64,000 bases of DNA, from the NCBI RefSeq assembly GCF_033095865.1, contig NZ_AP019365.1, forward strand, positions 5,801,501 through 5,865,500, read 5' to 3'. Both the position numbers and the translations under genes were made by a program. How positions within the stretch are numbered: the stretch's first letter is position 1; each line of letters opens with the position of its first letter. This stretch comes from Pseudomonas sp. KU43P (GTDB lineage: Bacteria; Pseudomonadota; Gammaproteobacteria; Pseudomonadales; Pseudomonadaceae). Positions 10,447 to 44,682 of the stretch are shown piece by piece. The notes beneath the pieces were generated by a model. It ran no database searches and was not told the origin of the DNA. It saw only the letters and a list, made by a program, of their open reading frames with translations.

Positions 10447-10485
10447 GCGATCACTTCACGGCGGATTTGCCCCCACTATGCCCCG

Positions 10486-18336: not shown

Positions 18337-18510
18337 CGCTTCTGCCTGCCGCTCGCCTTGCTGCGGTTCTTTACCGTGTACCGTCCTTGGGGCCGCCCGG
18401 ACATGGCGCTGTTCAAGTTCACCGAAGCCATGCTTGCCGACAATGGCCGTTGCCGCCCAGACCAACCTGAAAATATCTACCGGTTCGCCTGGAACCGCGA
18501 CAACCATTGA
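18337..18510 (+). pseudogene. Relic of a UDP-glucuronate-type sugar epimerase gene
   Basis: The frame encodes [20 protein letters not shown] followed by TEAML. This is the hallmark segment of UDP-glucuronate 4-epimerase-type NAD-dependent epimerases, whose usual form is [18 protein letters not shown]. The upstream CLPLAL also aligns with the LP-TG stretch that normally precedes it. The N-terminal NAD-binding half and the rest of the C-terminal half are absent, and the reading frame ends after ~40 further residues. It is a short decayed fragment, not an active gene. It occupies most of the gap between lpd and the cobalamin-locus copy 1. Confidence 0.65.
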
Positions 18511-18553
18511 CGCGCACCCTCTCTAGGCACCTCAAGCTTCGTACTCGCTGGCC

Positions 18554-18600
18554 TGGTGATCTACCATGCCGCCGCCAGTTTCCTCGTCGGAACAAAGAGA
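18554..18600 (+). pseudogene. 5' remnant of the cobalamin riboswitch leader
   Basis: TGATCTACCATGCCGCC-GCC-GTTTCC-CTCGGAA matches the sequence immediately 5' of, and entering, the intact riboswitch at 36961-36996 with only a few changes. The conserved riboswitch core is missing. The next bases (AAAGAGATTTCCCT) lead straight into the start codon of the paralogous substrate-binding protein, which marks a deletion junction. Confidence 0.7.
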
Positions 18601-18607
18601 TTTCCCT

Positions 18608-19657: not shown

Positions 19658-20166
19658 TGGCCTAGCTGCAATTGAGAAAGCGGTTGTACGTCGATGCGAT
19701 GGAATGCCGACAAGGGGCACTGCAATACATGCATCATGGCCGCCCGGATGATCATGGGGTGCGTCACCGCAACCCAATGACCCGGTGCAGTGAACCCATC
19801 CAGCCAGTGGGCCACGCGTTGGCATACGTCGACGATCGACTCACCCCCATGCGGCGTCGAGCGGGGGTCGGTCAACCAGGCCTGCACAAGAGCAGGCTCA
19901 TCTCGCTGCAGCGCCTTTAGCGCGACCCCCTTCCACACCCCGAAATCGCAGTCCCGCAATGCATGCTCTACGGCTACTTGCAGCCCCAGCATGGCCGCAG
20001 TCTGTGAGGTGCGCAGTTCAGGGCCGGCCAGACCGATGGCGCCATCCGGCAACACCAAAGGATGGCGCTGCGATAAGCGGATTTCATCAGCATCGGAATG
20101 AAAGTGGCCCAACCTTTGTGCGTCGGTCAGTGCGTGGCTGATGAGTGTGAGATGAGTGGCCTTCAC
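19618..20166 (-). CDS. Histidine-phosphatase-fold protein, cobalt-locus type (copy 1)
   Basis: A 182-residue phosphoglycerate-mutase superfamily protein. The catalytic N-terminal RHG motif is replaced by LISHA. The downstream elements LAGPELRTSQTAAML, PHGGES and the second histidine AVTHPMIIRA are kept. The start is a GTG at 20166 aligned with the ATG of copy 2 (40251-40799). Both are exactly 182 residues and roughly two-thirds identical by eye. The family is linked to cobalamin/cobalt loci and to CobC-type alpha-ribazole phosphatases. With the Arg lost, activity is uncertain. Confidence 0.75.
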   Translation of the reverse strand: MKATHLTLISHALTDAQRLGHFHSDADEIRLSQRHPLVLPDGAIGLAGPELRTSQTAAMLGLQVAVEHALRDCDFGVWKGVALKALQRDEPALVQAWLTDPRSTPHGGESIVDVCQRVAHWLDGFTAPGHWVAVTHPMIIRAAMMHVLQCPLSAFHRIDVQPLSQLQLGHYGAWRVSLTSAD

Positions 20167-20476: not shown

Positions 20477-22765
20477 TCAAGCCGTGGCGCGCAGTTCGCG
20501 GGCGGCTGCGACCATGTTCACCAGCGCAGCCTCGGTTTCCAGCCAGGCACGGGTTTTCAGGCCGCAGTCCGGGTTGACCCACAGGCGCTCGGCGGGAATG
20601 CGCTGGGCGGCCTTGCTCAACAGCTTGATGATCTCTTCCTTGGTCGGCACCCGCGGCGAGTGAATGTCGTACACGCCTGGGCCGATCTCGTTCGGGTAGT
20701 CGAACTTCTCGAAGGCTTCCAGCAGTTCCATGTCCGACCTCGAGGTCTCGATGGTGATGACGTCAGCGTCCATTGCGGCGATCGACTCGATCACGTCGTT
20801 GAACTCGCTGTAGCACATATGGGTATGGATCTGCGTTTCGTCACGTACACCCGACGCGCACAGACGGAACGCTTCGGTTGCCCAGTCCAGGTAATGCGCC
20901 CAGGCGCTCTTGCGCAGCGGAAGGCCTTCACGGAACGCAGCTTCGTCGATCTGTACGATCTTGATGCCGGCAGCTTCAAGGTCGACCACTTCGTCGCGAA
21001 TGGCCAAGGCCAATTGCCGGGCCTGTACTTCGCGGCTCACGTCTTCGCGTGGGAAGGACCACATCAACATGGTCACCGGGCCGGTCAGCATGCCCTTCAT
21101 GACCTTGTCGGTCAGGCCCTGGGCGTACTGGATCCACTGCACGGTCATGGCTTTCGGGCGGCTCAGGTCACCGAAAATGACCGCGGGCTTCACACAGCGC
21201 GATCCATAGCTCTGCACCCAGCCAAAGCGGGTGAACACATAGCCGTCCAACTGCTCGGCGAAGTACTCGACCATGTCGTTACGTTCCGCTTCCCCGTGCA
21301 CCAGCACATCCAAGCCCAGATTCTCCTGGATCTCGACGGCATGGCGTATCTCGCTCTGCATGGCTTCGACGTAGTCGGCCTCGGTCAGCTTGCCTTGCTT
21401 GAACGCCTGACGCGCCAGACGGATTGCCGACGTCTGCGGGAACGACCCGATGGTGGTGGTGGGGTAAGCTGGCAAGCCCAGGCCTGCCCGCTGCTTGGCG
21501 ATGCGCTGTTCAAAGGCTGACTGGCGCTGGCTGTCGACCGGCTTGATGGCGGCCAGGCGAGCTTGCACCGCCGGCTTGTGGATACGGGGCGAGGCGGCGC
21601 GGCTGGCCTGAATGGCGCAGCTGCGGGCCAGAGCAGCAACCACCTCGTCAGCGCCTGGCGCGTTGACAGCCTTGGTCAGCACGGCCACTTCCTGACACTT
21701 TTGCACGGCGAAGGCCAGCCAGCTCTTGAGCTCGGCATCGAGCTGGTCTTCGCGGGCCAGGTCCACCGGGCTGTGCAGCAGTGAGCAGGACGGCGCGACC
21801 CACAGGCGATCGCCCAGGCGCTCGGCAGCATCCTGCAGCACGGCAACAGCTTTCTCCAGGTCGCAGGCCCACACGTTGCGGCCGTTGACCAGCCCAAGCG
21901 ACAGCACTTTGTAGGCCGGCAGGCGATCGAGAATGGTCGGGTATTGATCAGGTGCGCGCACCAGGTCGATGTGCAGGCCATCCACAGGCAGGTTGGCGGC
22001 CAGGCCAAGGTTTTCTTCCAGGCCACCAAAGTAGGTGGCGATCAGTTTTTTCAGCGGCGCACGCTGCAGGATGTTGTAGACGCGCTCGTAGGCGCTCTTC
22101 CATTCCTGGGGCAGATCCAGCACCAGGATCGGCTCGTCGATCTGTACCCACTCCACGCCTTGAGCAGCCAGGCGGTTGAAGATCTCGTCGTACAGCGGCA
22201 GCAGGCGCTCGACCAACTCCAGCTTGTCGAAGTCGGCACCTTTGGTCTTGCCGAGCCACAGGTAGGTCAGGGGGCCGATCACCACTGGCTTCACGACGTG
22301 GCCCAAGGCCTTGGCTTCGTCGACTTCTTCGAAAAGCTGCTCCCAGCTCAGGGCGAACTGCTGGTCAGCGGTGAACTCGGGTACCAGGTAGTGGTAGTTG
22401 GTGTCGAACCACTTGGTCATTTCCTGGGCGTGGGCGCCACCGCAGCAGTTATCCACAGCGCCACGGGCCATGCTGAACAGGGTCTGCAGGGTTGGCTTGG
22501 CACCGGTGTGGCTGCGGAAACGCTCGGGGATCACGCCGAATGTCAGTGAATGGGTGAGGACTTGGTCGTACCAGGCGAAGTCGCCGACCGGCAGCAGTTC
22601 GATGCCCGCGTCCTTCTGAGCTTGCCAGTGGGTGGCACGCAACTCACGACCGACAGCGTGCAGACCGGCCTCGCTCAGCTCGCCTTTCCAGAATGCTTCC
22701 TGGGCTTTTTTCAGCTCGCGGTCACGGCCAATGCGCGGAAAGCCGAGGTTGTGTGCCAGTGCCAT
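20477..22765 (-). CDS. metE: Cobalamin-independent methionine synthase
   Basis: Transfers methyl from 5-methyltetrahydropteroyl-triglutamate to homocysteine, the last step of methionine synthesis without B12. It has 762 residues: N-terminal domain [20 protein letters not shown], linker and C-terminal barrel with [10 protein letters not shown]. Zinc ligands lie in HTHMCYSEF and the terminal NPDCGLKTR. The start at 22765 has AAGGA upstream. The upstream region carries a MetR-type operator that is nearly identical to the one in front of metR 23 kb away. metR itself is not next to metE here, although the two are usually divergent neighbours. Confidence 0.96.
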
Positions 22766-22823
22766 GGTGTTTTGTCCTTCAAACGAGAAATTCGATGAGG
22801 GCAATTGTCAGGACACTGGCGTA

Positions 22824-31945: not shown

Positions 31946-33520
31946 GTGAAGCAGCAGCCTGGCAAACGAAAGTCCGCCCTGTGGGGCATCCTTCTATTCG
32001 CGGCGAGCGCCTTCGCGCAGGCCGCTGACACCACGACGCCAGGGCCGACACTGGTGTATTCCTGGCCCGTTAACGCCGGTCCCCTCGACCCCCGCGGATA
32101 TTCGCCGAATCAGATGTATGCGCAGGCCATGGTGTATGAGCCTCTAGTGCGCTACACCCATGCAGGCACCGTGGAGCCGTGGCTGGCTACAAGCTGGAAA
32201 GTCTCCGATGACGGCAGGACTTACACCTTCACCCTACGTGACGGGGTTCGCTTCAGCGACGGTACGCCGTTCGACGCCTCAGCGGCCAAAGCCAACCTGG
32301 ATGCAGTCCTGGCCAACAGCCAACGCCACCGCTGGATGGAGCTGGTCACCACCCTCGACCATGTCGAGGCCCCCGATCGCCTTACCTTGCGCCTGGTGCT
32401 CAAACACCCTTATTACCCGACCCTCATGGAGCTGGCCCAAGTTCGCCCGCTGCGCTTCGGCGCCCCCGCTGCCAAGCCTGGTCAGCCCGTCGGTACCGGA
32501 CCATGGATGCGCGCCGAGTCACGCCTGGGCGAATTCGACCGCTTCGTGCGCAACCCGCAATACTGGGGGCCGAAGCCAGCCTACGGCGAAGTCATGGTGA
32601 AGGTCATTCCCGATCCCAACAGCCGTGCTTTAGCCTTGCAGGCTGGAGAGGTCGAACTGATCCAGGGCGCCGCCGGGGAGATCACTGCCGGCACCTTCGT
32701 GCGCCTACGCGACCAAGGCTACGCCACTGCTCTGTCAGCACCACTGGCCACGCGCACCTTGGCCATGAACACCGGCCGTGGCGCCACCCGCGACCTGGCG
32801 GTGCGCCAGGCGATCAACGAGGCGGTGGACAAGCAGGCGATCATCGACAAGATACTCTACGGACTGGAACCACGGGCCGACACGCTGTTCGCCAGTAACA
32901 TGCCATACGCCGACATCGGCCTGAAACCCTATCCGTATGATCCCGCTCAGGCAAAGCAAGCGCTGGAGTCCTCGGGCTGGACGCTCGCCCCCGGCGCCAG
33001 TGTGCGCAGCAAGGGCGGCGAGCCGCTGTCGATCGAACTGGTATTCCTCGGCACCAGTGCCCTGCAGAAAAGCCTGGCCGAAGTGCTCCAAGGCGAGCTG
33101 GCCAAGGTCGGCATCCACATCGAACTGCGCGCCGTAGAGGAAGGGGCCTTGGTGCGCCGGCAGCGCGACGGTGATTTCGGCATGATCTTCGCGGACACCT
33201 GGGGAGCGCCCTACGATCCCCACTCGTTCGTCAGCTCCATGCGCTATGCCGGCCACGCCGACTACATGGCCCAGCGCGGCCTTGCGATCAAGGATGAGCT
33301 CGATCAGCGAATAGGCCAGGTGCTGGCCAGCACCGATGAGCAGCAGCGAGCCGAACAGTACCGCTTTATCCTGACCACCTTGCACGAACAGGCGGTTTAC
33401 CTGCCGATCTCGCACCTCACCGCCATCAGCGTGCGCCGTGATTCGGTAGGTCACGTCGAGTTCGGCAGCACGTTGTTCGATGTACCGTTCGAGGCCATGA
33501 CGCCGAAGCAGGAACAATGA
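31946..33520 (+). CDS. nikA: Nickel ABC transporter, periplasmic nickel-binding protein
   Basis: A 524-residue exported binding protein of the peptide/opine/nickel family, the same length as Escherichia coli NikA. A GTG start is followed by a signal peptide ending near AFAQA. The mature protein has [30 protein letters not shown] and [19 protein letters not shown], close to NikA. It captures chelated nickel and passes it to NikBC. First gene of the nikABCDE operon. Confidence 0.93.
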
Positions 33521-33521
33521 C

Positions 33522-34463
33522 ATGTTGCGCTACATTCTGCTGCGCCTGGTGTTGCTTGTTCCGGTGATGTTCGGCGTGTCGCTGCTGGTATTCGTGCTGC
33601 TGCACCTGGGCAGCACCGATCCTGCGCTGGATTACCTACGCCTATCGCACATCCCGCCGACCGATGCGGCCATCGCCGAAGTCCGCCACGCTCTTGGCCT
33701 GGATCGCCCCTTGTATGCGCAGTATCTGACCTGGCTGTGGAAGGCGCTGCACCTGGACTTCGGCATCTCGTATCTGACCGGTCGCCCGGTGCTGGACGAC
33801 CTGCTGTATTACCTGCCGGCCACCTTGCAACTGGGCGGCCTGGCCCTGGCCTGCACGCTTTTGCTGTCGATCCCGCTTGGGCTCATGGCCGCCCGCTGGC
33901 AAGGCCGCTGGCCCGACCATGCCGTACGGGCAGTCACCTTTCTGGGCGTGTCGATGCCCAATTTCTGGCTGGCGTTCCTGCTGATCGCGCTGTTCTCGCT
34001 GTGGCTGGGCTGGCTGCCACCGCTGGGCCGAGGCACGGCCGGGCACCTGGTGATGCCGGTGCTGGCCATTGCGCTGATGTCGATGTCGATCAACGCCCGC
34101 CTGCTACGCGCCAGCCTGCTCGAAGCCAGCGGCCAACGCCATGTCACCTACGCTCGCGCCCGCGGCCTGCCCGAGCGCCAGGTGTGGCGTGACCACGTCC
34201 TGCGCAACGCCTGGCTGCCGTTCGTCACAGCCACCGGCATGCACGTGGGCGAACTGATCGGTGGTGCACTGGTGATCGAGACCATCTTCGCCTGGCCCGG
34301 CGTGGGGCGCTTTGCCGTCTCGGCGGTGCTCAACCGCGACTTCCCGGTGATGCAGTGTTTCACCCTGCTGCTCACCGGTCTGCTGATGGTCTGCAACCTG
34401 GTGGTGGACGTGTGCTACGCCTGGCTCGACCCGCGTAGCCGTCTGGAGGGAGCAAGCGCATGA
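33522..34463 (+). CDS. nikB: Nickel ABC transporter permease NikB
   Basis: A 313-residue inner-membrane permease of the DppB/OppB class. It has six predicted helices, the N-terminal [24 protein letters not shown], and the EAA-type cytoplasmic loop around [22 protein letters not shown] that contacts the ATPases. It starts 1 base after the nikA stop and overlaps nikC by 4 bases, so it is translationally coupled. Confidence 0.92.
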
Positions 34464-35305
34464 GCGTTCTTTCAAATATTCGTCGACCGGCACTGGCCAG
34501 CTCCACCGGCATGGTCCTCGGTCTGGTCTTGGTTGGCCTGCTGGTTGTGCTGGCAGTTTTCGGCCAGTGGCTTGCACCGCACGACCCCGACTTGGTCGAT
34601 CTCGGCCAGCGCCTACTGCCGCCCGACGCCAGCCACTGGCTGGGTACCGATCACTTAGGCCGCGACCTGCTGTCACGCCTGATCGTCGGCACCCGTCTGT
34701 CGCTGGGCAGCGTGATGCTGACCTTAGCGCTGGTACTCGCCCTCGGGCTGGCCGTGGGTGGCCTCGCGGGCTTCATCGGTGGACGTACCGACCTGCTGCT
34801 GATGCGCCTGTGCGACATGTTCATGACCTTCCCGACCTTGGTGTTGGCGTTCTTCTTCGTCACCCTGCTGGGCACTGGACTGACCAACGTGATCATCGCC
34901 ATCGCCTTGTCTCATTGGGCCTGGTATGCACGTATGGTGCGCGGCATGGTGATTGCCCAGCGTGGTCGCGAATACGTGCTGGCCTCTCGCCTGGCCGGTG
35001 CCTCGCGCTGGGCTCGTCTACGTCAGCACGTGCTGCCGAACATCGCCGGCCCTCTGCTGGTGCTCGCAACCATGGATATAGGCCACATGATGCTGCACGT
35101 CTCGGGCCTGTCCTTCCTTGGCCTGGGGGTGACACCGCCGACCGCCGAATGGGGCGTGATGATCAACGATGCCAAGGAATTCATCTGGACCCATCCGCAA
35201 CTGCTGCTGTTGCCGGGCCTGATGATCTTCTTCTCGGTGATGGCCTTCAACCTGCTGGGCGATGCCCTGCGCGATCGCCTCGACCCGACCCGGGAGCACC
35301 ACTAG
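34460..35305 (+). CDS. nikC: Nickel ABC transporter permease NikC
   Basis: A 281-residue partner permease of the DppC class. Motifs are [19 protein letters not shown] and [16 protein letters not shown] near residue 55, and the EAA loop is [20 protein letters not shown]. It forms the membrane channel with NikB. Its start overlaps the nikB stop, and nikD begins immediately after its stop. Confidence 0.92.
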
Positions 35306-36076
35306 ATGACCCCATCCACCTTGGAAGTCCGTGACCTGCACATCGAAACACAGGCTGGCACGCTGGTGCAGGGTGTCGACCTACAACTTCATCGCGGTGA
35401 AGTCTGCGCCCTGGTCGGAGCCAGTGGTTCGGGCAAGTCCCTGAGCTGCCTGGGCATGCTCGACCTGTTGCCGGCCGGCCTTGTTCGCACAAAGGGTCAG
35501 TTGCTCCTTGATGGCCAACCCTTGAGCGCTGCCCAGGTGCGGGGCCGCCTGGCCAGCTTGGTGCTGCAAAACCCACGCAGTGCGTTCAACCCGGTACGCA
35601 ACATGGCCAGCCATGGGCTGGAGACTCTTCGCCAGCGCGGCACTACCGGTGCCGCCGCCCGTGAGCGGATGGTCCACTGCCTAGCCGCCGTGGGTCTCGC
35701 CGATCACACCCGCGTGTTGCAGTCGTTCGCCTTTCAGCTCAGCGGCGGCATGCTGCAGCGCATGATGATCGCCCTGGCGCTAATGGCCGAGACACCGTTT
35801 CTACTGGCGGACGAGCCCACTAGCGACCTCGACGCCGTGAGCCAGGCGCGCTTTCTCGACGTGCTGATGGATCTGGTCGAACGGCACGGACTCGGCGTGT
35901 TGCTGGTGACCCATGATATGGGCGTGGTGGCGCGCTGCGCCGATCAGGTAACGGTAATGGACGCTGGCCACATCGTCGAGCGTCAGCCCGTGCAAGCACT
36001 GTTTGCCAGCCCTGCCAGTGACACCGCGCGTACGCTGCTTGAAGCCCACCAAATCCTCTGCGGGAGCCAACCATGA
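35306..36076 (+). CDS. nikD: Nickel ABC transporter ATPase NikD
   Basis: A 256-residue ATPase. Walker A is VGASGSGKSLSCLGML near residue 36, the signature is LSGGMLQRMMIALAL, Walker B is PFLLADEPTSDLD, and the H-loop is LLVTHDMG. It energises nickel import with NikE. Overlaps nikE by 4 bases. Confidence 0.92.
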   Translation: MTPSTLEVRDLHIETQAGTLVQGVDLQLHRGEVCALVGASGSGKSLSCLGMLDLLPAGLVRTKGQLLLDGQPLSAAQVRGRLASLVLQNPRSAFNPVRNMASHGLETLRQRGTTGAAARERMVHCLAAVGLADHTRVLQSFAFQLSGGMLQRMMIALALMAETPFLLADEPTSDLDAVSQARFLDVLMDLVERHGLGVLLVTHDMGVVARCADQVTVMDAGHIVERQPVQALFASPASDTARTLLEAHQILCGSQP

Positions 36077-36888
36077 GCCTGCTGCACGTCCACCAACTGA
36101 GCCACCGCTACCGCACGGGCGGACTGGTGCACAAACGTGGCTGGTTGCAAGTCCTCGACGGCATAAACCTAGAGCTACAAGCCGGCCAATCAATCGGCTT
36201 GCTGGGCAGCAGCGGCAGCGGCAAAAGCACCCTCGCTCGCCTGTTGCTCGGGCTGGAAACACCGAGCCAGGGGCAGGTCACCTTCGCAGGAGAAGCCGTC
36301 AGCCAACTGCGCGGCGAACCGGCGCGGGCCTTCCAGCGCAATGTGCAGCTGGTGTTCCAGGACGCGCCCGGCGCCTTCAACCCGCAGCGCAGCATCGGCT
36401 GGAGCATTGCCGAACCGTTGCGTCACCTGAGCGATCTGGATGAGGCGGCCCGCCGCACGCGGGCCGTTGAGTTGTTGGAGCAGATGGGACTGCGCGCCGA
36501 GCATGCCGAACGCCTGCCGCAGCAACTCAGCGGTGGCCAATTACAACGGGCCAACATCGCCCGGGCGCTGGCGATCTCACCAAAGCTGGTGGTACTCGAT
36601 GAAGCGCTGTCGAACCTGGACCGAGTACTGCAACTACAGCTGCTCCAGCGCCTCGACGCACTGCGTCGCGACAAGGGCACTGCCTTCCTGCTGATCACCC
36701 ATGACCTCAGCCTGGTGCGTTACTTCTGCCAGCGGGTTGTGGTGCTCGACGCAGGGCGCATCGTCGAGGACCGTGTAGTGGACGGTGACCTGTCATTCGA
36801 CCACCCCATAGGCCAACAGCTGCAGGCCGCCGTGCTGCCTGAGCGCCCGATCAAGACCAACGCTCAGGTCAGCAGGTCACTCGCTTAG
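36073..36888 (+). CDS. nikE: Nickel ABC transporter ATPase NikE
   Basis: A 271-residue ATPase. Walker A is LGSSGSGKSTLARLL near residue 45, the signature is LSGGQLQRANIARAL, Walker B is LVVLDEALSNLD, and the H-loop is LLITHDLSL. Last gene of nikABCDE. The 391-base gap that follows contains the cobalamin riboswitch of the next locus. No clear terminator is seen directly after nikE. Confidence 0.92.
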   Translation: MSLLHVHQLSHRYRTGGLVHKRGWLQVLDGINLELQAGQSIGLLGSSGSGKSTLARLLLGLETPSQGQVTFAGEAVSQLRGEPARAFQRNVQLVFQDAPGAFNPQRSIGWSIAEPLRHLSDLDEAARRTRAVELLEQMGLRAEHAERLPQQLSGGQLQRANIARALAISPKLVVLDEALSNLDRVLQLQLLQRLDALRRDKGTAFLLITHDLSLVRYFCQRVVVLDAGRIVEDRVVDGDLSFDHPIGQQLQAAVLPERPIKTNAQVSRSLA

Positions 36889-36975
36889 CGGGATCGAAGA
36901 CTGAGACAACCTACGCGGCCAGGGCCTTGCACGCTAGCAACTTCCCCTACCTTAGTCTGATGGTCTACCATGCCG

Positions 36976-37150
36976 CCCGCCGGTTTCCACCTCGGAATTA
37001 ATAGGGAATTCGTGGCTCACCCCTTGTGAGCCAAACGGAACTGCCCCCGCAACTGTAGGTGCCGAGCCTACTCCTGCACGCCACTGGACACGATCCGGGA
37101 AGGTTGGAGTTAGGCCATGACGCACCAGTCAGGAGACCTGCCGGCAAACA
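36976..37150 (+). ncRNA. Cobalamin riboswitch upstream of the substrate-binding protein gene
   Basis: Matches the conserved cobalamin riboswitch core in order: AATAGGGAA, the paired GGCTCAC/GTGAGCC arm, ACTGCCCCCGCAACTGTA (B12 box region), GCCACTGG, CCGGGAAGG, and CAGTCAGGAGACCTGCCGG. Possible expression-platform hairpins follow (GTCCGGGATGGAC and ACCCTGAATAGGGT) before the start codon at 37280. It likely turns the downstream genes off when cobalamin is plentiful. Confidence 0.92.
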
Positions 37151-37279
37151 ATAACCAACCGGCGGGGTGTCCGGGATGGACATCCTTACCCTGAATAGGG
37201 TGCTGTCTCGTGCATGCACGAGGCAAGGCGATGCCTGTCCGTGCGTCTATCCTGCGCACCGTTCGATAGGAGATCGCCC

Positions 37280-38290
37280 ATGTTGCCCCGCTTCGCCGTC
37301 CTGTTCGCTGCATTGAGCCTGTCCGGGCTCGCCCAGGCTGCCGCTACTCACTACCCACTGACGATCGACAACTGTGGTGTGCCGCAGACCTTTGCACAGA
37401 CTCCGGAGCGCGCCGTCACGATCGGTCAGGCCGGTACCGAAATGCTCTACGCCCTGGGTCTGGGCAGTAAGGTTGCGGGCACTTCGCTGTGGTTCAACAA
37501 CGTGCTGCCCGAGTTCAAGGCACAGAACGACAAGGTCGAGCGTCTCGCCGACAACGATCCAAGTTTCGAGGCAGTGGTCAACAAGCGCCCGCAGCTGGTG
37601 ACTGTGCAATTCGAGTGGATGGTAGGGCCCCAAGGCGTGGTGGGTACCCGTGAACAGTTCAATGAGTTGAAGATCCCGACTTATCTGCTGCCATCGGACT
37701 GTGAAGGCAAGGACAACTTGGTCGGTGCCGACGGCACCCGCATCCAGCCGTTCCGCATCGACACCATCTACAAGAGCGTGAGCCAGCTGGCTGAAATCTT
37801 TGACGCACAGGACCAAGGTGCTGCGCTGAATGCAGACCTCAAAGGTCGCCTGGATCGTTCCAAGCAGCAACTCGCTGGCAAGGACTTGTCGAAGACTTCC
37901 GCGCTGTTCTGGTTCTCCAGCGCCGACCTCGATATCGACCCCTACGTCGCCGGCCGCCAGGGTGTAGCTGACTTCATGCTACAGACCCTCGGTGTACGCA
38001 ACGTCGTCGAGTCCAACGAGGAGTGGCCGACTGTAGGCTGGGAAACGCTGGCCAAGGCCAATCCGACTTGGATCATCATCGCCCGCATGGACCGACGTCG
38101 TTTCCCTGCCGATGATTACCAGAAGAAGCTGGAGTTCCTGCGCAACGACCCTGTGACCAAGCACATGGAAGCCGTGAAACAGGGGCGCATCATCATCCTC
38201 GATGCCGACGCCATGCAGGCGGGCATCCGACTGTTCCGTGGGCTTGAAACGCTTTCTACCGCTTTCGCGACCGGTAAAGCGCCTCAATAA
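37280..38290 (+). CDS. Periplasmic substrate-binding protein, BtuF/FecB-like (copy 2)
   Basis: A 336-residue exported protein with signal peptide MLPRFAVLFAALSLSGLAQA and the same fold as copy 1 (about 88% identical over 333 residues). AGGAG sits seven bases before the ATG. It is the first gene under an intact cobalamin riboswitch, followed by a cupredoxin and a porin gene. No ABC permease or ATPase is present, so it either uses a transporter encoded elsewhere or works as a stand-alone metal or corrinoid binding protein. Confidence 0.9.
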   Translation: MLPRFAVLFAALSLSGLAQAAATHYPLTIDNCGVPQTFAQTPERAVTIGQAGTEMLYALGLGSKVAGTSLWFNNVLPEFKAQNDKVERLADNDPSFEAVVNKRPQLVTVQFEWMVGPQGVVGTREQFNELKIPTYLLPSDCEGKDNLVGADGTRIQPFRIDTIYKSVSQLAEIFDAQDQGAALNADLKGRLDRSKQQLAGKDLSKTSALFWFSSADLDIDPYVAGRQGVADFMLQTLGVRNVVESNEEWPTVGWETLAKANPTWIIIARMDRRRFPADDYQKKLEFLRNDPVTKHMEAVKQGRIIILDADAMQAGIRLFRGLETLSTAFATGKAPQ

Positions 38291-38415
38291 AGTCCCCCCG
38301 ATAGCCTGATCTACCCGTGCCTGATCGAGTCAACAACCTCGATCGGGCTTTCAGGCTGAACACGATGAGCCACGCACAGAGGTGTTGTGGCTGCACAGAT
38401 TTCTGGAATATCTCC

Positions 38416-38856
38416 ATGTTCATGCGTTCTCTTGCACTGCTGCTCGCCAGCGTTATTGCCGCACCGGCGGTATTCGCCGAAGTCCACGAAGTCAAGATGC
38501 TCAACCGTGGGGCCGATGGCGCCATGGTCTACGAGCCTGATCACCTGCGTATCGCCCCGGGCGATACCGTTCGCTTCGTGCCGACCCAGAGCAGCCACAA
38601 CGCAGCCAGCATTCCCGCTCTGCTCCCCGCCAAAGCCGAGCCGTTCAAAAGCAAGCTCAGCCAACCGTTCGAGCAGACCTTCAGCGTACCCGGTCTCTAC
38701 GGCATCCAGTGCATTCCCCACTTGGCGATGGGCATGGTCATGCTGATCCAGGTGGGTGATTCGGGTGCAGAAAAGCCGCTGCTGCCCGACAACCTCCCAG
38801 CCCGTGCAAAAGCACGTTTCACCGCGCAACTGGAAAAGCTTGAGGCCAGCCAATGA
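38416..38856 (+). CDS. Pseudoazurin-like cupredoxin
   Basis: A 146-residue exported protein with an N-terminal signal (MFMRSLALLLASVIAAPAVFA). Type-1 copper ligands are conserved: His in QSSHNAAS, Cys in YGIQCIPH, His in the same segment and Met in LAMGMVM. Pseudoazurin is normally a periplasmic electron carrier, for example to nitrite reductase. Here it is under cobalamin control, which points to a metal-handling or reductase-linked role. ATG 38422 is an alternative start. Its stop overlaps the porin start in an ATGA. Confidence 0.85.
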   Translation: MFMRSLALLLASVIAAPAVFAEVHEVKMLNRGADGAMVYEPDHLRIAPGDTVRFVPTQSSHNAASIPALLPAKAEPFKSKLSQPFEQTFSVPGLYGIQCIPHLAMGMVMLIQVGDSGAEKPLLPDNLPARAKARFTAQLEKLEASQ

Positions 38857-40199
38857 GCCGCGTTAATCACGCTGTCTGGGTGTTTCCGCTGCTCAGCGTA
38901 AGCCCTTTGGCCTTCGCAGATTCGGCCCAGTCACAGTCCAATGGCTTCATCGAGGACAGCAGCTGGAGCATCCTCAACCGAACCGTTTATGACCAGCGCG
39001 ACTACAAGCACGGAGCACGCAATAGCGGTGCCCGTAACGCGTACAAACCGCGCAGTGAGCGTAACGGCCTGGCCGAAGAATGGGCCTACGGCTTGATGGG
39101 GACTTTCTCGTCGGGCTTCACTCAAGGCCTAATTGGTGTTGGTGTCGATGCCCACGCCTACCTCGGTGTGCAACTCGACAGCGGTGGTGGCCGTGCCGGC
39201 AAGGCCCGACTCCTGGGTGTCGACAACGAGGGGCATCCAAAGAATGAGTACAGCCGTGGCGGTGCCGCAATCAAGATGCGAGTGTCCAACACAGTACTGT
39301 CCTATGGCGAGCAGCGTGTGAAGACCCCGGTGTTCAGTTCTTCCGACAGCCGCCTGCTGCCCGAGACCGCCACCGGCTTCTTCCTCACCAGCAGCGAGAT
39401 CGACACCCTCAAATTCGTAGCCGGTCACTTCAACGAAAGCACCGACCGCAATGCATCGAGCCACGACCAGGGCTTCGTGGTGAACTACTCCAATGGCCGA
39501 CAAGGCAACACTTTCGATCTGGCCGGCATAGTCTGGAACCCTGGTGCCGCTTTCAGCGGCAGCCTGTACACCTCGCGCTATGAGGACAGTTGGAACCAGA
39601 GCTACCTGGGCAGCACCATCACCCATGCCCTCGACGACCGCCGCAGTCTGAGCCTGGACCTCAACCTCTACCGCACCACGGACACCGGCAAGGCGCTGTC
39701 CGGTCGTATCGACAATACCACCTGGAGCCTGGTGGGCCGCTATGCCCAAGGCCCCCACGCATTCAGCCTTGGATGGCAGCAGGTGGATGGCAATACACCC
39801 TTCGATTACGTGACCCGTGGTGCGATTTTCATCGCCAACGCCGTGCAGATGTCCGACTTCAACGCCCCCAACGAGAAGTCATGGCAGGCGCGCTATGACC
39901 TGAACATGGGTGCCTATGGGGTTCCCGGCCTGAACCTGACAGCGCTGTATGTACGCGGCTTCGATATCGACGGTACGCATGTCGACCCCAATGGTGGATA
40001 CGCATACCTGGGCTACGGGAAGGACGGTAAGCACTGGGAACGTGATCTGGAGGCTCGCTACGTAGTGCAGAGCGGCAAGGCCAAGGGAACGACCTTCTCA
40101 CTGCGACACAACGTCCACCGCGGCGATACCGCTCAAGCAGAGTTGGATGGCGACCAGATCCGCTTTGCAGTGGAGTATCCGTTGACGGGTGGCTTCTAA
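38853..40199 (+). CDS. Outer-membrane porin, OprD family
   Basis: A 448-residue outer-membrane channel with a signal peptide ending near LAFA. The mature N-terminus has GFIEDSSWSILNRTVYDQRDY, EEWAYGLMGTFSSGFTQGLIGVGVDAHAYLGVQLDSG is typical of OprD porins, and the C-terminus ends in Phe (YPLTGGF) for barrel assembly. OprD members admit small specific solutes. In this riboswitch-led operon the likely cargo is a cobalt complex or B12 precursor. Confidence 0.9.
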   Translation: MSRVNHAVWVFPLLSVSPLAFADSAQSQSNGFIEDSSWSILNRTVYDQRDYKHGARNSGARNAYKPRSERNGLAEEWAYGLMGTFSSGFTQGLIGVGVDAHAYLGVQLDSGGGRAGKARLLGVDNEGHPKNEYSRGGAAIKMRVSNTVLSYGEQRVKTPVFSSSDSRLLPETATGFFLTSSEIDTLKFVAGHFNESTDRNASSHDQGFVVNYSNGRQGNTFDLAGIVWNPGAAFSGSLYTSRYEDSWNQSYLGSTITHALDDRRSLSLDLNLYRTTDTGKALSGRIDNTTWSLVGRYAQGPHAFSLGWQQVDGNTPFDYVTRGAIFIANAVQMSDFNAPNEKSWQARYDLNMGAYGVPGLNLTALYVRGFDIDGTHVDPNGGYAYLGYGKDGKHWERDLEARYVVQSGKAKGTTFSLRHNVHRGDTAQAELDGDQIRFAVEYPLTGGF

Positions 40200-40250
40200 C
40201 TTACCCAGCGGTCGCGAGGTGGGTGGCTCGCAATGCGAACCGCCCACCAC

Positions 40251-40799
40251 TCACCCAGAGGCAGTCAGTTTGACTCGCCACATGCCGTAATGGCTCAGGT
40301 GCAACTGCGCCAGCGGTTGCACATCGATGCGATGAAACGCGGCCAAGGGACTCTGCAGCACGTGCATCATCGCCGCCCGGACAATCATCGGGTGGGTCAC
40401 CGCAAGCCAATGCCCTGGCTCATTGAAGCCATCCAGCCAACCGGCCACCCGCCGGCAGACGTCGGCAACCGACTCGCCGCCGTGGGGGGCGGACTCAGGA
40501 TCGCTCAACCAGGCCTGCAAAAGATCCGGTTCCTCTCGCTGCAGCACTTTCAACGAGAGGCCTTCCCAGCGGCCGACATCACAGTCGCGCAGTGCGGGCT
40601 CGACGGTCGCTTGCGACCCCAACAGGCTTGCCGTCTGAGTGGCGCGCAATTCTGGGCCCCTCAGAACGCTTGTGTCCTTGGCCAAGGCCAGGGGCTCAAT
40701 TGCTGCCGCCAACACGCCATCAGCCTCGGCATGGAACCGACCCAACCGCTGCGCTTCGGTCGCTGCATGGCTGATCAGCGTGAGGGATATGGCCTTCAT
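40251..40799 (-). CDS. Histidine-phosphatase-fold protein, cobalt-locus type (copy 2)
   Basis: A 182-residue phosphoglycerate-mutase superfamily member with LISHAATEAQ in place of the catalytic LxRHG, then LRGPELRATQTASLL, PHGGES and VTHPMIVRA. The start is an ATG at 40799. It is divergent from cbtBA, with the second riboswitch between. Its partner at 19618-20166 has the same altered motif, so the change predates the duplication. A CobC-like alpha-ribazole-phosphate role would fit, but the missing Arg argues against ordinary catalysis. Confidence 0.8.
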   Translation of the reverse strand: MKAISLTLISHAATEAQRLGRFHAEADGVLAAAIEPLALAKDTSVLRGPELRATQTASLLGSQATVEPALRDCDVGRWEGLSLKVLQREEPDLLQAWLSDPESAPHGGESVADVCRRVAGWLDGFNEPGHWLAVTHPMIVRAAMMHVLQSPLAAFHRIDVQPLAQLHLSHYGMWRVKLTASG

Positions 40800-40829
40800 G
40801 GTCGAACCTTCATGAGCGGAAATCTCGAC

Positions 40830-40925
40830 AAGGTGTATCATTTTGTTACGAATTGGGAAGCCGGTGAAAACCCGGTGCGGTCGCGCCACTGTAATCGACT
40901 TCGAGAGCCAGACCCCAATGTCGTC
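40830..40925 (+). ncRNA. Cobalamin riboswitch upstream of cbtBA
   Basis: Contains GGGAAGCCGGTGAAAACCCGG, then TGCGGTCGCGCCACTGTAAT and GAGAGCCAGAC, the short cobalamin riboswitch form seen before cbtB in many proteobacteria. It ends about 50 bases before the cbtB start and so should control cbtBA. A ribosome site CAGGAG precedes the cbtB start. Confidence 0.85.
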
Positions 40926-40973
40926 AACAATCACAACATCCTGACCGAACGCGTCATTCTCCAGGAGCTTCGC

Positions 40974-41192
40974 ATGTCCACCACCGTTGCCACTTCCCCT
41001 GACAGCGACCTGTCGCTGCCTTCGCTCCCACTGAGCGAAATCCTCCCTTGGGCGATCTTCGCTGGCTTGCTTCTGCTGCTGGCCATCTACTTCGTCGGTG
41101 CTGAACAAGGTGCCACGGCGCTGATCTCGGGTGCCTATGTCCATGAGTTCGTGCATGACGGCCGCCACCTGCTGGGCTTCCCCTGCCACTGA
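40974..41192 (+). CDS. cbtB: Cobalt transport accessory protein CbtB
   Basis: A 72-residue protein with one transmembrane helix (ILPWAIFAGLLLLLAIYFVG) and a C-terminal histidine-rich motif HEFVHDGRHLLGFPCH that probably binds cobalt. It starts 49 bases after the riboswitch and 14 bases before cbtA. CbtB and CbtA together are predicted to form a cobalt uptake system. Confidence 0.9.
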   Translation: MSTTVATSPDSDLSLPSLPLSEILPWAIFAGLLLLLAIYFVGAEQGATALISGAYVHEFVHDGRHLLGFPCH

Positions 41193-41206
41193 CCGAGGAA
41201 TGTGAC

Positions 41207-41968
41207 ATGACAGGCAATCTCCTGCTGCGCGGCATGCTTGCCGGGCTGTTGGCGGGCATCCTCGCCTTTGGTTTCGCCAAAGTGTTCGGCGAGCCTTCTG
41301 TAGACCAGGCCATCGCTTTCGAGGAAACCCTGGCGCACAGCCATGACCACGGTGACGGCGCCGCTGACGAAGAAGAGGAACTGGTCAGCTGTGAAGTGCA
41401 GAGCACTGTCGGCCTGTTCACCGGCGTCGTGATCTACAGCGTGTCCATCGGCGGCATCTTTGCCTTGGTGTTCGCCTTCGCCATGGGGCGCATGGGCAGC
41501 CTGAAGGTCGGTCCCCGTGGCTTGGCTGCGATCCTCGCGGTGCTGGCATTCATCAGCGTCATCCTGGTGCCAGGACTCAAGTACCCGGCCAACCCGCCGT
41601 CCGTGGGTGATCCCGAGACCATCGGCCAACGTACCAAACTGTTCTTCCTGATGATGGTCGTATCGATCGCCGCGCTGGTGGTGGCAGTCAACCTGTTCCG
41701 TAAACTGCTGGCTCGGCACGGCGGCTGGGCCGCAGCGGTAGCGGCCATCGTGCTGTACGTGGTGATCATGGCGGTAGCCGGCAAGCTGTTCCCGGCCATC
41801 AACGAGGTACCAAAAGAGTTCTCCGCCTCGTTGCTGTGGAATTTCCGTATCGCCTCGCTCGGCATCCACGTGGTGCTGTGGGCAGTCCTGGGTCTCGTGT
41901 TCGGTTGGCTCGCCCAAGGGCCTGTCCTGGCGCCTCGCAACCGACATAACGCCAGATTGCAGTCCTGA
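41207..41968 (+). CDS. cbtA: Cobalt transporter CbtA
   Basis: A 253-residue inner-membrane protein with about six helices. A histidine-rich loop HSHDHGDGAADEEEEL follows helix 1 and is a likely cobalt-binding site. NPPSVGDPETIGQRTKLFFLMM is typical of CbtA. It acts with CbtB under the riboswitch and is followed by a strong terminator. Confidence 0.9.
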   Translation: MTGNLLLRGMLAGLLAGILAFGFAKVFGEPSVDQAIAFEETLAHSHDHGDGAADEEEELVSCEVQSTVGLFTGVVIYSVSIGGIFALVFAFAMGRMGSLKVGPRGLAAILAVLAFISVILVPGLKYPANPPSVGDPETIGQRTKLFFLMMVVSIAALVVAVNLFRKLLARHGGWAAAVAAIVLYVVIMAVAGKLFPAINEVPKEFSASLLWNFRIASLGIHVVLWAVLGLVFGWLAQGPVLAPRNRHNARLQS

Positions 41969-42041: not shown

Positions 42042-42551
42042 TCAAACCAAGCTATGTTCAGCAAGGTTGCAATATTGCCCTTTGAAGTACAGCAATGGCT
42101 GCGTTGCAGCAGCTTCTTGCAGGTTTAACGCCTTTACTTCGCCGATCACAATCAGGTGATCGCCCGCGACATGCTCAGCATGAATTTCGCAGTCAAACCA
42201 GTGCAGGCTCCCGGCGATGATCGGATTGCCCAGTGGCGACTCCTGCCATTCGACACCGTGCCACTTGTCCGTACCTCGCCGAGCGAACTGATTGGAAATC
42301 CCGACCTGCTCACCTGACAAGATGTTGACCGCGAACCGACCGGCCTGGCGTATCTTAGGATAGCTGGCCGAACTGGCCATTACGCTGAACGACACCAGCG
42401 GCGGGCTCATCGACACGCTGTAGAACGACTGGCAGGTAAAGCCAATCGGCTCGTCATCCGTGTGCGATGTGATCACCGTGATACCGGAGGCGTAGTGCCC
42501 GAGCGCTTGGCGAAAGCGCGACGGCTCGATAGCTGTACTGGGAACTGACAT
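42042..42551 (-). CDS. Flavin reductase (DIM6/NTAB family)
   Basis: A 169-residue FMN-binding oxidoreductase. Motifs are ALGHYASGITVITSHTDDEP, GFTCQSFYSVSMSPPLVSFSV and RFAVNILSGEQ. It supplies reduced flavin to a partner. Being the third gene after mesX and mesD, 91 bases past mesD, it most likely supplies reduced flavin to the oxygen-dependent MesX or MesD reaction. The start ATG at 42551 has AGGA upstream. Confidence 0.85.
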   Translation of the reverse strand: MSVPSTAIEPSRFRQALGHYASGITVITSHTDDEPIGFTCQSFYSVSMSPPLVSFSVMASSASYPKIRQAGRFAVNILSGEQVGISNQFARRGTDKWHGVEWQESPLGNPIIAGSLHWFDCEIHAEHVAGDHLIVIGEVKALNLQEAAATQPLLYFKGQYCNLAEHSLV

Positions 42552-42642
42552 GGTAGGTCCTGAGTATTGGATGCCGGTCGGAAGTGTTGAGGAAGACCTG
42601 CGGTAACCATCCTGGCAAACCACTTCCGATTTCGGCTCAGTA

Positions 42643-43671
42643 CTAGTTCGAGAGCTCTTTTCGTACGATTTCAGCACCGGCGCTCAGCGCCTGAAGCTTG
42701 CCCCGCGCCACTCGACGAGGCAAAGGCGCCATGCCGCAGTTGGTGCAAGGCAAAAGCTTGTCGGCGTCGACGAACTGAAGGGCCTTACGCAGGGTGTTGG
42801 CCACTTCTTCGGGCGTTTCAATGGCATGGTTGGCCACATCGATAGCACCCACCATCACTTTCTTGCCGCGGATGAGCTCGATCAGGTCCATCGGCACGTG
42901 TGAGTTGTGGCACTCCAGCGAGACGATGTCGATGCTGGACTTCTGCAGCTTGGGGAAAGCCTCTTCATATTGGCGCCATTCCGACCCCAGAGTCTTTTTC
43001 CAGTCGGTGTTGGCTTTGATGCCGTAGCCGTAGCAGATGTGCACGGCAGTTTCGCACTTGAGACCTTCGATGGCCCGCTCCAGGGTGGCGACACCCCACT
43101 CGTTCACTTCGTCGAAGAACACGTTGAACGCGGGTTCGTCGAACTGAATGATGTCTACACCGGCAGCCTCAAGCTCGCGAGCTTCCTCGTTGAGAATCTT
43201 GGCAAATTCCCAGGCCAGCTTTTCGCGGCTTTTGTAGTGCGCGTCATACAGCGTATCGATCATGGTCATGGGGCCTGGCAGCGCCCATTTAATGGGTTGC
43301 GAGGTTTGCTGACGCAGGAACTTTGCGTCTTCCACGAATACCGGCTGGCGGCGCGCAACGGCACCCACGACAGTAGGCACGCTGGCATCGTAGCGATCAC
43401 GAATCCGGACGGTCTCGCGCTTCTCGAAATCGACGCCGTCGAGGTGTTCAATGAAGGTGGTCACGAAGTGCTGACGGGTTTGTTCACCATCACTGACGAT
43501 ATCAATGCCAGCCAGTTGCTGCTCATGCAGCGACAAGCGCAAAGCGTCTTGTTTGCCCTCAACCAGTTCATCACCTTCCAATTTCCAAGGTGACCAAAGC
43601 GTCTCAGGTTGTGCGAGCCAAGAAGGTTTAGGCAGGCTGCCAGCGGTTGAAGTGGGCAACAACTTTTTCAT
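42643..43671 (-). CDS. mesD: Folate-independent methionine synthase core protein MesD
   Basis: A 342-residue barrel protein related to the C-terminal catalytic domain of MetE but lacking the N-terminal domain. Zinc-site residues lie in AVHICYGYG, SLECHNSH and LLPCTNCGMAPLP. It starts MKKLLPTSTAGSLPKPSW, a MetE-like STAGSLP loop. MesD proteins make methionine from homocysteine with MesX and oxygen, using an unknown methyl donor rather than methyltetrahydrofolate. mesX is directly upstream, which confirms the family choice. Confidence 0.88.
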   Translation of the reverse strand: MKKLLPTSTAGSLPKPSWLAQPETLWSPWKLEGDELVEGKQDALRLSLHEQQLAGIDIVSDGEQTRQHFVTTFIEHLDGVDFEKRETVRIRDRYDASVPTVVGAVARRQPVFVEDAKFLRQQTSQPIKWALPGPMTMIDTLYDAHYKSREKLAWEFAKILNEEARELEAAGVDIIQFDEPAFNVFFDEVNEWGVATLERAIEGLKCETAVHICYGYGIKANTDWKKTLGSEWRQYEEAFPKLQKSSIDIVSLECHNSHVPMDLIELIRGKKVMVGAIDVANHAIETPEEVANTLRKALQFVDADKLLPCTNCGMAPLPRRVARGKLQALSAGAEIVRKELSN

Positions 43672-43698
43672 AATGGAAGACCTTGTACTTTAGATTAT

Positions 43699-44682
43699 TC
43701 AGGCAGCGTAGCCGGCGGACCACTCTTCAAGCACTGCTTGATAGGGCTTGATGAACTGTTCTTCAGCAAACTTTCCTTGCTCAATAGCCAGCCGGCCACG
43801 TTCTTCCCGGTCGTAGACGATACGAGTCAGCGAATAATCCTGATGCTGCAAGCTGGGTTGGTAGGACTTTCCGGCTGCCGAGTTGGCATTGTAGATTTCA
43901 GGCCGGTAAATCTTCTGGAAGGTGTCCATGGTGCTGATCGTGCTGATCAACTCCAGGTTAGTGTAATCACCGAGCAGGTCGCCTGCGAAGTAGAACGCCA
44001 ATGGCGCAACGCTGTTTGGCGGCATGAAGTAACGAACCTTCAAACCCATCTTCTGGAAATACTCATCGGTCAGTGAATACTCATCCTGCAGGTATTCAAC
44101 GCCCAGAACCGGATGCTGATTCTCAGTCCGATGGTAGGTCTTGCTGCTGGAAACGCTCAGGCAGATCACGGGCGCCTTCTTGAAGTGCTGCTGATAGGCG
44201 CTGGAGCTCACGAAGGCCTTGAACAGCTTGCCATGCAGGACCCCGAAGTCATCCGGCGTGCTGAATTTTGGCTGATCCTTGTTGTGGCCCAGCAGCAACA
44301 CGCTAAAGTCGTAATCTCGCACGTAAGACGAGAAATTATTACCCACCATGCCATCGATACGTTCGTTGGTCTGACGATCAACGACTGTCGTTTTCAGAAT
44401 TTCAATCAATGGAAGAGCGTGCGAATTGCGCTCGCCATCGACATTCATCTCAACGGAAATGATTTCAAGCTCGACAGCGTATCGGTCGCCCTTTGGGTTA
44501 TCCCAGTGCGCCAAAGCGTTGAAGCGATTATCGATCATCTTCAACGTATTGCGCAGGTTCTCTTGGCGACTGTTGCCCCGCGCCAGATTGGCGAAATTGG
44601 TAGTGATACGCGTATTGTCCGACGGCTGATAGTTCTCATCGAAACAAATGCTTTTGATGGCAAATGCAAACTCATTGCTCAT
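43699..44682 (-). CDS. mesX: MesX (DUF1852), partner of MesD
   Basis: A 327-residue protein of the DUF1852 family (MSNEFAFAIKSICFDENYQPSDNTRITTNFANLARG at the start, PNSVAPLAFYFAGDLLGDYTNLELISTISTMDTFQ later). No signal or membrane segment is present. MesX is required for MesD activity and makes the pathway oxygen-dependent. mesD follows by 27 bases on the same strand. The 341 bases upstream (44683-45023) hold no credible gene and probably contain the operon promoter. Confidence 0.88.
   Translation of the reverse strand: MSNEFAFAIKSICFDENYQPSDNTRITTNFANLARGNSRQENLRNTLKMIDNRFNALAHWDNPKGDRYAVELEIISVEMNVDGERNSHALPLIEILKTTVVDRQTNERIDGMVGNNFSSYVRDYDFSVLLLGHNKDQPKFSTPDDFGVLHGKLFKAFVSSSAYQQHFKKAPVICLSVSSSKTYHRTENQHPVLGVEYLQDEYSLTDEYFQKMGLKVRYFMPPNSVAPLAFYFAGDLLGDYTNLELISTISTMDTFQKIYRPEIYNANSAAGKSYQPSLQHQDYSLTRIVYDREERGRLAIEQGKFAEEQFIKPYQAVLEEWSAGYAA

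Follow-up and report, generated by a model that had tools for sequence, protein, structure and literature searches.

Bacteria that make their own cobalamin (vitamin B12) have to secure cobalt in competition with iron, nickel and copper, and the passage of cobalt through the cell envelope is poorly known; according to the available part of a review, no cobalt-specific outer-membrane receptor has so far been confirmed. A stretch of 64,000 nucleotides from Pseudomonas sp. KU43P (contig NZ_AP019365.1, positions 5,801,501 to 5,865,500; hereafter the window) raises the question of what a cobalamin riboswitch controls when it is followed by a periplasmic binding protein (binder A), a pseudoazurin-like cupredoxin and an OprD-family porin. 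An earlier note, made from the sequence of the window, had taken the binding protein to stand alone and had joined these genes with the nearby cbtB and cbtA into one complete envelope route for cobalt or a corrinoid. The comparisons reported here point elsewhere: the window operon is probably one half of a split CbtJKL-type cobalt importer under B12 control, the other half being a riboswitch-led operon at 3.668 Mb of the same genome. That cobalt is the substrate in this organism, that binder A uses the permease of the other half, what the porin admits, and the duplication and loss behind the split we infer from sequence comparison.

The binder operon and its apparent partner

The binder operon consists of the following features.

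36964-37159, plus strand: cobalamin riboswitch 1, leader of the binder operon (RF00174, long form, 101.6 bits against a gathering score of 31.5, full model 1-189, by cmscan)
37280-38290, plus strand: binder A, a CbtJ-like periplasmic binding protein (Peripla_BP_2, Pfam, 139.5 bits)
38319-38348, plus strand: 11-bp hairpin in the spacer between binder and cupredoxin (the surrounding 141-nt stretch folds with a z of -3.56)
38416-38856, plus strand: pseudoazurin-like cupredoxin (Copper-bind; TIGR02375, 118.9 bits against a cut-off of 109.85)
38853-40199, plus strand: OprD-family porin (Pfam OprD, 453.2 bits), its start overlapping the cupredoxin stop (ATGA)

The genes named in the earlier note are real, the binder, cupredoxin, OprD porin, phosphatase, CbtB and CbtA all being matched by family models, and a covariance-model search matched both of its cobalamin riboswitches above the gathering score (101.6 and 35.5 bits); Rfam at gathering scores gave these two matches in the window. 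The hairpin is a possible partial terminator, with just three T after the stem, and the spacer that holds it (38288-38416) had no match at E<2 in the fetched loci except itself. The description of a two-riboswitch locus fits the window, whereas the genome as a whole holds seven RF00174 matches. One of these, at 3668234 and 2.17 Mb from the window, heads an operon that encodes a FecCD permease and an ATPase as well as an OprD porin 90% identical to the window OprD, and no match to the binder or the cupredoxin was found there. A FecCD search of the whole genome returned four matches, two of them strong, one being the 3.668-Mb permease and the other a BtuC-like protein (279.8 bits against a cut-off of 334). 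The absence of ATP-binding cassette (ABC) permease and ATPase genes claimed earlier therefore holds from riboswitch 1 to cbtA but not beyond, since a nickel importer operon adjoins and likely FecCD and ATPase partners lie elsewhere in the genome. The permease and ATPase at 3.668 Mb are the apparent partners of binder A, which would use them as its membrane core.

Just upstream of the 3.668-Mb operon, a TonB receptor gene has a cobalamin riboswitch of its own; the receptor is of the siderophore class (TIGR01783, 297.6 bits against a cut-off of 223.5; BtuB model, 102.6 against 599.7). The best BtuB-like protein of the genome (463.3 of 599.7 bits) is encoded elsewhere, with no RF00174 match at its place. 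A gene for an HGSNAT_cat-like membrane protein (L012 8040-9206) lies just upstream of the importer riboswitch here and in many Pseudomonas relatives, and a membrane protein gene of HGSNAT-like type also precedes the cupredoxin and OprD genes at four loci (L054, L058, L060 and L071). Elsewhere, the riboswitch that precedes a cobalamin adenosyltransferase gene is adjoined by a frame of 965 aa in which Pfam recognises a ToxA_N domain (153.8 bits; L014 12992-15886).

The importer operon in relatives

Relatives were gathered by a cupredoxin scan of named genomes, from which the best 80 of 91 confirmed loci were kept, with stretches reaching up to 10 kb on each side; among the hosts are Pseudomonas, Thauera, Comamonas, Lautropia, Paracoccus, Roseomonas and Halomonas. 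At 68 of the 80 loci the order is binder, FecCD permease, ATPase and cupredoxin, 65 of these having a cobalamin riboswitch by our own sequence pattern, and OprD was detected downstream of the cupredoxin in 41 of the 68. Six loci have the binder directly followed by the cupredoxin with no ABC core between them, and all six carry the riboswitch pattern; two others are interrupted by contig ends. When four sets of loci were searched with Rfam, a riboswitch stood before the binder in 7/7, and before the operon in 9/11, 1/6 and 4/7. The set of eleven has two exceptions, in G207 and G057, both of them FecCD-ATPase pairs that stand alone. In the set of six, L095 has a riboswitch, while L099 and the four cupredoxin-OprD loci weighed below gave no match. 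The last set has riboswitches in L012, L077, L079 and L083 and no match in L067, L090 and L091, the stretch of L091 starting only 288 bases ahead of the binder match.

How usual the split is was gauged in an even sample of 199 Pseudomonas genomes (E limits of 1e-100 for the permease, 1e-100 for the binder and 1e-30 for the cupredoxin), in which the permease was found in 93, the binder in 91, both in 89 and the cupredoxin in 22. Binder and permease genes are adjacent in 86 of the 89 genomes with both. The binding protein described as lone belongs, as its CbtJ-like part, to an ABC importer of FecCD type under riboswitch control. The three genomes with separated genes are the present one, G207 and strain GM4FR (G009, locus L017; it was met under two labels, also as G057, and is counted once), and in all three the cupredoxin lies beside the binder. 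Separation thus occurs in 3 of the 20 cupredoxin genomes with both genes against 0 of the 69 others (Fisher p 0.010, uncorrected for kinship). The permeases of GM4FR and G207 are more distant, at 73% and 74% identity, and have no riboswitch match in the fetched stretch. Outside the sample, Pseudomonas sp. URMO17WK12:I11 (L042, L124) has riboswitch, binder and cupredoxin apart from a second unit of riboswitch, FecCD permease, ATPase and OprD; no OprD was detected downstream of its cupredoxin.

A different arrangement is found in Halomonas sp. SpR8 (L094 8603-12605), where a riboswitch is followed by binder, cupredoxin, a second binder, FecCD permease and ATPase, with cobN and cobW homologues nearby; it may show how a binder-cupredoxin module gets added.

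Origin of the split

The window holds a second binder gene in addition to that of the operon.

18499-18604, plus strand: remnant leader of binder B (local alignment score 32, against a maximum of 20 in 200 shuffles)
18608-19657, plus strand: binder B, a paralogue of binder A (88% identical), without an RF00174 match there

The leader of binder B aligns with the sequence that precedes riboswitch 1 and with roughly 35-48 bases from the beginning of that riboswitch's aptamer, and the start codon comes next; with its aptamer truncated, binder B has probably escaped B12 control. The other half of the importer carries a mark of its own. The leader upstream of the 3.668-Mb permease is the leader of a binder operon, and the N-terminus of that permease (MQPRFATLLTGLALV) matches the signal peptide of a relative's binder (MLPRFATLLAGLGLA); the permeases of five relatives compared have different N-termini. 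Since the permease starts as a binder signal peptide does, its frame looks like a fusion left as a scar by deletion of a binder. The split looks like the outcome of duplication and complementary loss of a riboswitch operon, the ancestor of which would have been an intact unit of riboswitch, binder, permease, ATPase, cupredoxin and porin. In the binder tree, both copies of this genome form one clade with those of URMO17WK12:I11 and G207 (95/91), GM4FR standing apart, and a sister pair of binders A and B is neither shown nor rejected (p-AU 0.29). The cupredoxin and OprD trees gave no order for the split.

Substrate of the importer

Cobalt as the substrate is suggested by similarity to an operon on pSymB of Sinorhizobium (S.) meliloti 1021, whose binder, permease and ATPase are 51%, 67% and 55% identical to those of the present genome over most of their length and which lies behind a cobalamin riboswitch of 119.6 bits. 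We take this operon to be SMb20056-58. By its plasmid, its riboswitch, its similarity and the text of a review it is very probably CbtJKL, a reported cobalt importer. In the available part of that review (PMC7689651), CbtJKL of S. meliloti is located on pSymB, where an adenosylcobalamin riboswitch controls it; the system had initially been regarded as a transporter of cobalamin, and knock-out strains could be grown only with 1-10 uM CoCl2. Of the earlier alternatives, cobalt or a corrinoid, B12-controlled cobalt import is retained as the likely function, and the far sub-threshold scores of the BtuF and BtuC models, given below, speak against the corrinoid.

The hosts of the cupredoxin apparently make their own B12. 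Of 37 cupredoxin genomes, 36 have cobM, a gene of de novo corrin synthesis, above its cut-off, while in a phylum sample 117 of 299 do, a comparison uncorrected for kinship; the 37 genomes stand for as many of the 80 loci, of which 33 have a binder, and the one genome without cobM above the cut-off is that of Thauera sp. Sel9. Outside Pseudomonas the counts are 24/25 against 108/290, the sample being taken to hold nine genomes of this genus. Seven of the 80 loci have, within their fetched flanks, genes homologous to the cob genes of this genome. The binders themselves have an invariant arginine triplet (R272-R274) and an invariant R317 in 47 aligned sequences, and OprD is a family of carboxylate channels; together these suggest a small anionic cobalt chelate as the imported cargo.

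In three importer operons a gene for an S-adenosylmethionine-dependent methyltransferase comes last, namely in Shinella (L158 7742-8518), Rhodobacter capsulatus (L159 8129-8917) and S. meliloti (L157 19553-20332), being annotated as such in the first two and recognised by eye in the third. The operon of R. capsulatus pRCB133 runs from riboswitch through binder, FecCD permease, ATPase and pseudoazurin to the methyltransferase, an order which marks the methyltransferase as a further accessory there.

The cupredoxin

All four type-1 copper ligands claimed for the cupredoxin are present, the pattern His ... Cys-x2-His-x4-Met being kept in 82 of 82 copies including that of the window; the window has SHN at a place where relatives have GHN or GHD. 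The nearest solved structures are pseudoazurins. With its gene inside the binder operon at 74 of 80 loci, in gamma-, beta- and alphaproteobacteria, the cupredoxin is a recurrent accessory of the importer operon, and the association reaches well beyond one strain. Even in the three sampled genomes with the core elsewhere, the cupredoxin gene has remained next to that of the binder. Its role is the least certain point, and redox handling of the bound metal is a speculative first choice.

The view that a pseudoazurin in a B12-controlled unit was undescribed has held up so far, as the literature searched contained no paper joining a cobalamin riboswitch with a pseudoazurin or cupredoxin, although the tables and supplements of B12 regulon surveys may list this cupredoxin. 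In the available parts of PMC9409073, PMC5987163 and PMC12284477, pseudoazurin appears as a denitrification protein or in the title of a reference.

Proposed mechanism and alternatives

When coenzyme B12 is scarce, the riboswitches would release both halves of the importer. The OprD porin and the riboswitch-controlled TonB receptor would then admit a small cobalt chelate to the periplasm, binder A would capture it there, and the FecCD permease and ATPase made from the 3.668-Mb operon would import it for B12 synthesis. The pseudoazurin might act at the binder step, most likely by passing an electron to or from the metal or the chelate so that cobalt is released or selected, a step which is speculative. 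That a dedicated blue copper protein serves a cobalt importer under B12 regulation as a functional, redox-active subunit, coupling capture by the binder to electron transfer, is proposed tentatively, as something possible rather than likely.

Several findings weigh against a split cobalt importer or its proposed origin. All three ABC subunits fall below every listed NCBIfam cut-off (for the ATPase, the list covers 25 of 191 families); the pSymB record is unannotated, so the CbtJKL label there comes from the review, the plasmid and the riboswitch; and binder A could be served by another permease. At four of the 80 loci (L054, L058, L060 and L071) the cupredoxin and OprD genes have neither the binder nor an orthologous core nor a riboswitch beside them, and, conversely, the S. 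meliloti operon and 69 of the 89 genus genomes with binder and permease have no cupredoxin match (in the genus, at E<=1e-30), which makes the cupredoxin dispensable. Concerning the origin, the binder-cupredoxin spacer 38288-38416 contains no permease or ATPase remnant, the cupredoxin tree neither shows nor rejects a clade of the split binders, and the deletion junction of URMO17WK12:I11 differs from that of this genome, so that the split there may be a separate event.

Two other readings concern what the operon imports and through which membrane protein. Import of cobalamin or other corrinoids by binder and permease, as an equivalent of BtuFCD, would fit the cobalamin riboswitch control and the BtuF/FecCD-type families, and the permease does score 222.5 bits with the BtuC model; the cut-off of that model is 461 bits, however, binder A reaches 28 of 234 bits with the BtuF model, and the receptor beside the other half is of the siderophore type, far below the BtuB cut-off. 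The OprD channel is too narrow for B12, the cupredoxin genomes apparently make B12 themselves, and the pSymB importer was itself once mistaken for a cobalamin transporter (PMC7689651, available part), so that corrinoid import is improbable. The single route proposed earlier, in which porin, binder and cupredoxin would deliver to CbtBA as the inner-membrane step, draws on their adjacency in the window, on the two cobalamin riboswitches and on one other genome (G105, L150) in which cbtBA adjoins the binder's ABC operon. No match to the window CbtA or CbtB at E<=1e-10 was found in any of the 80 relatives' stretches, a search which a divergent CbtBA would escape, and the CbtA orthologue occurs in 15 of 199 genus genomes (E<=1e-40), 4 of these 15 having the binder against 91 of 199 overall. 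With so few shared genomes, no close CbtBA homologue near the relatives' cupredoxins and a FecCD/ATPase operon of the binder's own family in this genome, the route through CbtBA is very improbable and was rejected; CbtBA looks like a separate, additional cobalt system next door.

The remaining alternatives accept the importer and differ over the cupredoxin. As a copper buffer or remover it would keep copper off the chelate or the binder so that cobalt is not displaced, with no electron transfer, a view that agrees with the four copper ligands kept in every copy and with its place next to the binder in the three sampled genomes with a distant core, but less well with the classical pseudoazurin site, which is built for electron transfer; buffering is on the whole rather unlikely. 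Equally doubtful is a role in which cupredoxin and porin form an independent pair that borrows the operon's B12 control and serves another redox enzyme. The four strains that keep the pair without binder or core favour it, as do the many binder-permease genomes and the S. meliloti operon without a cupredoxin, but the gene's place in the binder operon at 74 of 80 loci from three proteobacterial classes does not; and since OprD follows the cupredoxin in just 41 of the 68 core loci, the binder operon is its more constant neighbour. Both are close rivals to the redox role.

CbtBA, the phosphatases and other neighbours

Downstream of the binder operon and elsewhere in the window lie the following further features.

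40251-40799, minus strand: phosphatase A, with SHA replacing RHG (His_Phos_1, Pfam, 82.9 bits)
40814-40937, plus strand: cobalamin riboswitch 2, leader of cbtBA (RF00174, short adenosylcobalamin-like form, 35.5 bits against a gathering score of 31.5, by cmscan)
40974-41192, plus strand: cbtB (Pfam CbtB, 40.9 bits, cut-off 27)
41207-41968, plus strand: cbtA (Pfam CbtA, 256.6 bits, cut-off 30.7)
31946-36888, plus strand: nik nickel ABC importer, a neighbour outside the binder operon (NikA 765.6, NikB 544.6 and NikE 395.9 bits, all above their cut-offs)
19624-20166, minus strand: phosphatase B, a paralogue of phosphatase A (66%, by sequence comparison)

Riboswitch 2 is, as the earlier note had it, of a different kind from riboswitch 1. 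At 14 CbtBA loci, the window being one of them, a cobalamin-class match (E<=0.01) precedes cbtB in 13, with none in L155; two of the 13, the window (L143) and L153, reach a family's gathering score. Among aligned sequences of this type, the core-closing helix has changes on both sides at 7 of 7 pairs, and 10 of 21 pairs do so overall. In the available part of PMC8123684, the transcript on which coenzyme B12 had the strongest repressing effect in a B12 producer was that of CbtBA (43-fold), in keeping with a role of CbtBA in cobalt supply. A divergent second CbtBA lies between cobW and cobM elsewhere in this genome.

The 14 CbtBA loci, again counting the window, have cbtBA beside the phosphatase in five, metE in four and mesD in two. 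The phosphatase had been called altered, and the arginine preceding the catalytic histidine is indeed missing in 16 of 16 phosphatase loci. This putative histidine phosphatase subfamily is widespread, with matches in 134 of the 199 genus genomes. The catalytic motif of the alpha-ribazole phosphatase CobC is RHG. In phosphatase A this motif is absent and the CobC model TIGR03162 gives 72.1 against 162.9 bits; a frame with the RHG motif is found at L014:4434. The 15 best other phosphatase loci have no cobalamin riboswitch at the gathering score, and the phosphatase was on this ground rejected as a part of the importer. It lies, however, beside cbtBA in 4 of 13 other CbtBA loci, three of the four with a sub-gathering riboswitch match, and beside metE or mesD in 4 of the 15 other phosphatase loci, so that it may be loosely tied to genes of B12 or methionine metabolism. 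Outside the window, the subfamily was observed at L127-L142.

Between the end of the nik operon (36888) and riboswitch 1 there are 75 bases, its nikC and nikD being named by position alone as the two frames between the scanned nik genes. As a partner of the binder, nikABCDE was rejected; it belongs to a different ABC class, and no NikR match at E<=1e-10 occurs in the 80 relatives' stretches. Cobalamin-independent methionine synthases are encoded near both binder copies of the window: metE (20477-22804) adjoins phosphatase B, and directly past cbtA, on the opposite strand at 42042-44682, come a flavin reductase, a MesD-like methionine synthase and MesX (Pfam, 625.8 bits). Two frames at 9475-12317 of the window resemble CobW (G3E GTPase), a naming made by eye on the N-termini alone. 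The window gathers several B12- or methionine-related units, which are combined otherwise elsewhere, rather than one pathway.

Comparison with known systems

In a conserved operon, a CbtJKL-type importer is accompanied by a copper redox protein, often by an OprD porin and sometimes by a TonB receptor, which provides testable components for the entire passage of cobalt through the envelope. The binder staying with the cupredoxin while the core is elsewhere, as in three sampled genomes, amounts to a natural experiment that hints at the cupredoxin's partner, and a redox-active cupredoxin subunit, if true, would link copper and cobalt supply in bacteria that make their own B12.

The closest known system is CbtJKL, with which the present importer shares a cobalamin riboswitch, a BtuF-like binder, a FecCD permease and an ATPase; the core is homologous, and riboswitches stand before the binder, before the permease and before the pSymB operon. 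It differs in being split over two riboswitch operons, the contiguity of the three genes, usual for CbtJKL though not defining, being absent from this genome, and in having a pseudoazurin and two OprD porins. The pSymB operon has no cupredoxin match, and in it the apparent methyltransferase gene follows the ATPase. BtuFCD is more remote, as the BtuF and BtuC scores of binder A and the permease lie far below what membership of those families demands. The best NCBIfam models for all three subunits are those of EitABC and the putative F420-0 ABC transporters, from which they are nonetheless set apart by scores of 268.2 of 640 bits (binder), 300 of 437.35 (permease) and 270.3 of 372.4 (ATPase). 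CbtBA of the window agrees with the predicted cobalt transporter of that name in its Pfam CbtB and CbtA domains and its cobalamin-class riboswitch, but falls below the NCBIfam cut-offs (CbtB 21.8 of 64.4, CbtA 36.6 of 182.9 bits, both hypoth_equivalog models).

Cupredoxin domains are found in iron uptake, in EfeO and P19/FetP, and these resemble the present case in that a periplasmic cupredoxin is attached to a metal importer; importer class and metal are other there, whereas the window protein is a separate pseudoazurin under B12 control. With the pseudoazurins of TIGR02375 it shares a score above the cut-off, the four type-1 ligands and the C-x2-H-x4-M spacing; in P. denitrificans the pseudoazurin takes part in denitrification (PMC9409073 and PMC5987163, in the parts available), and that of the window lies in a cobalamin-riboswitch importer operon.

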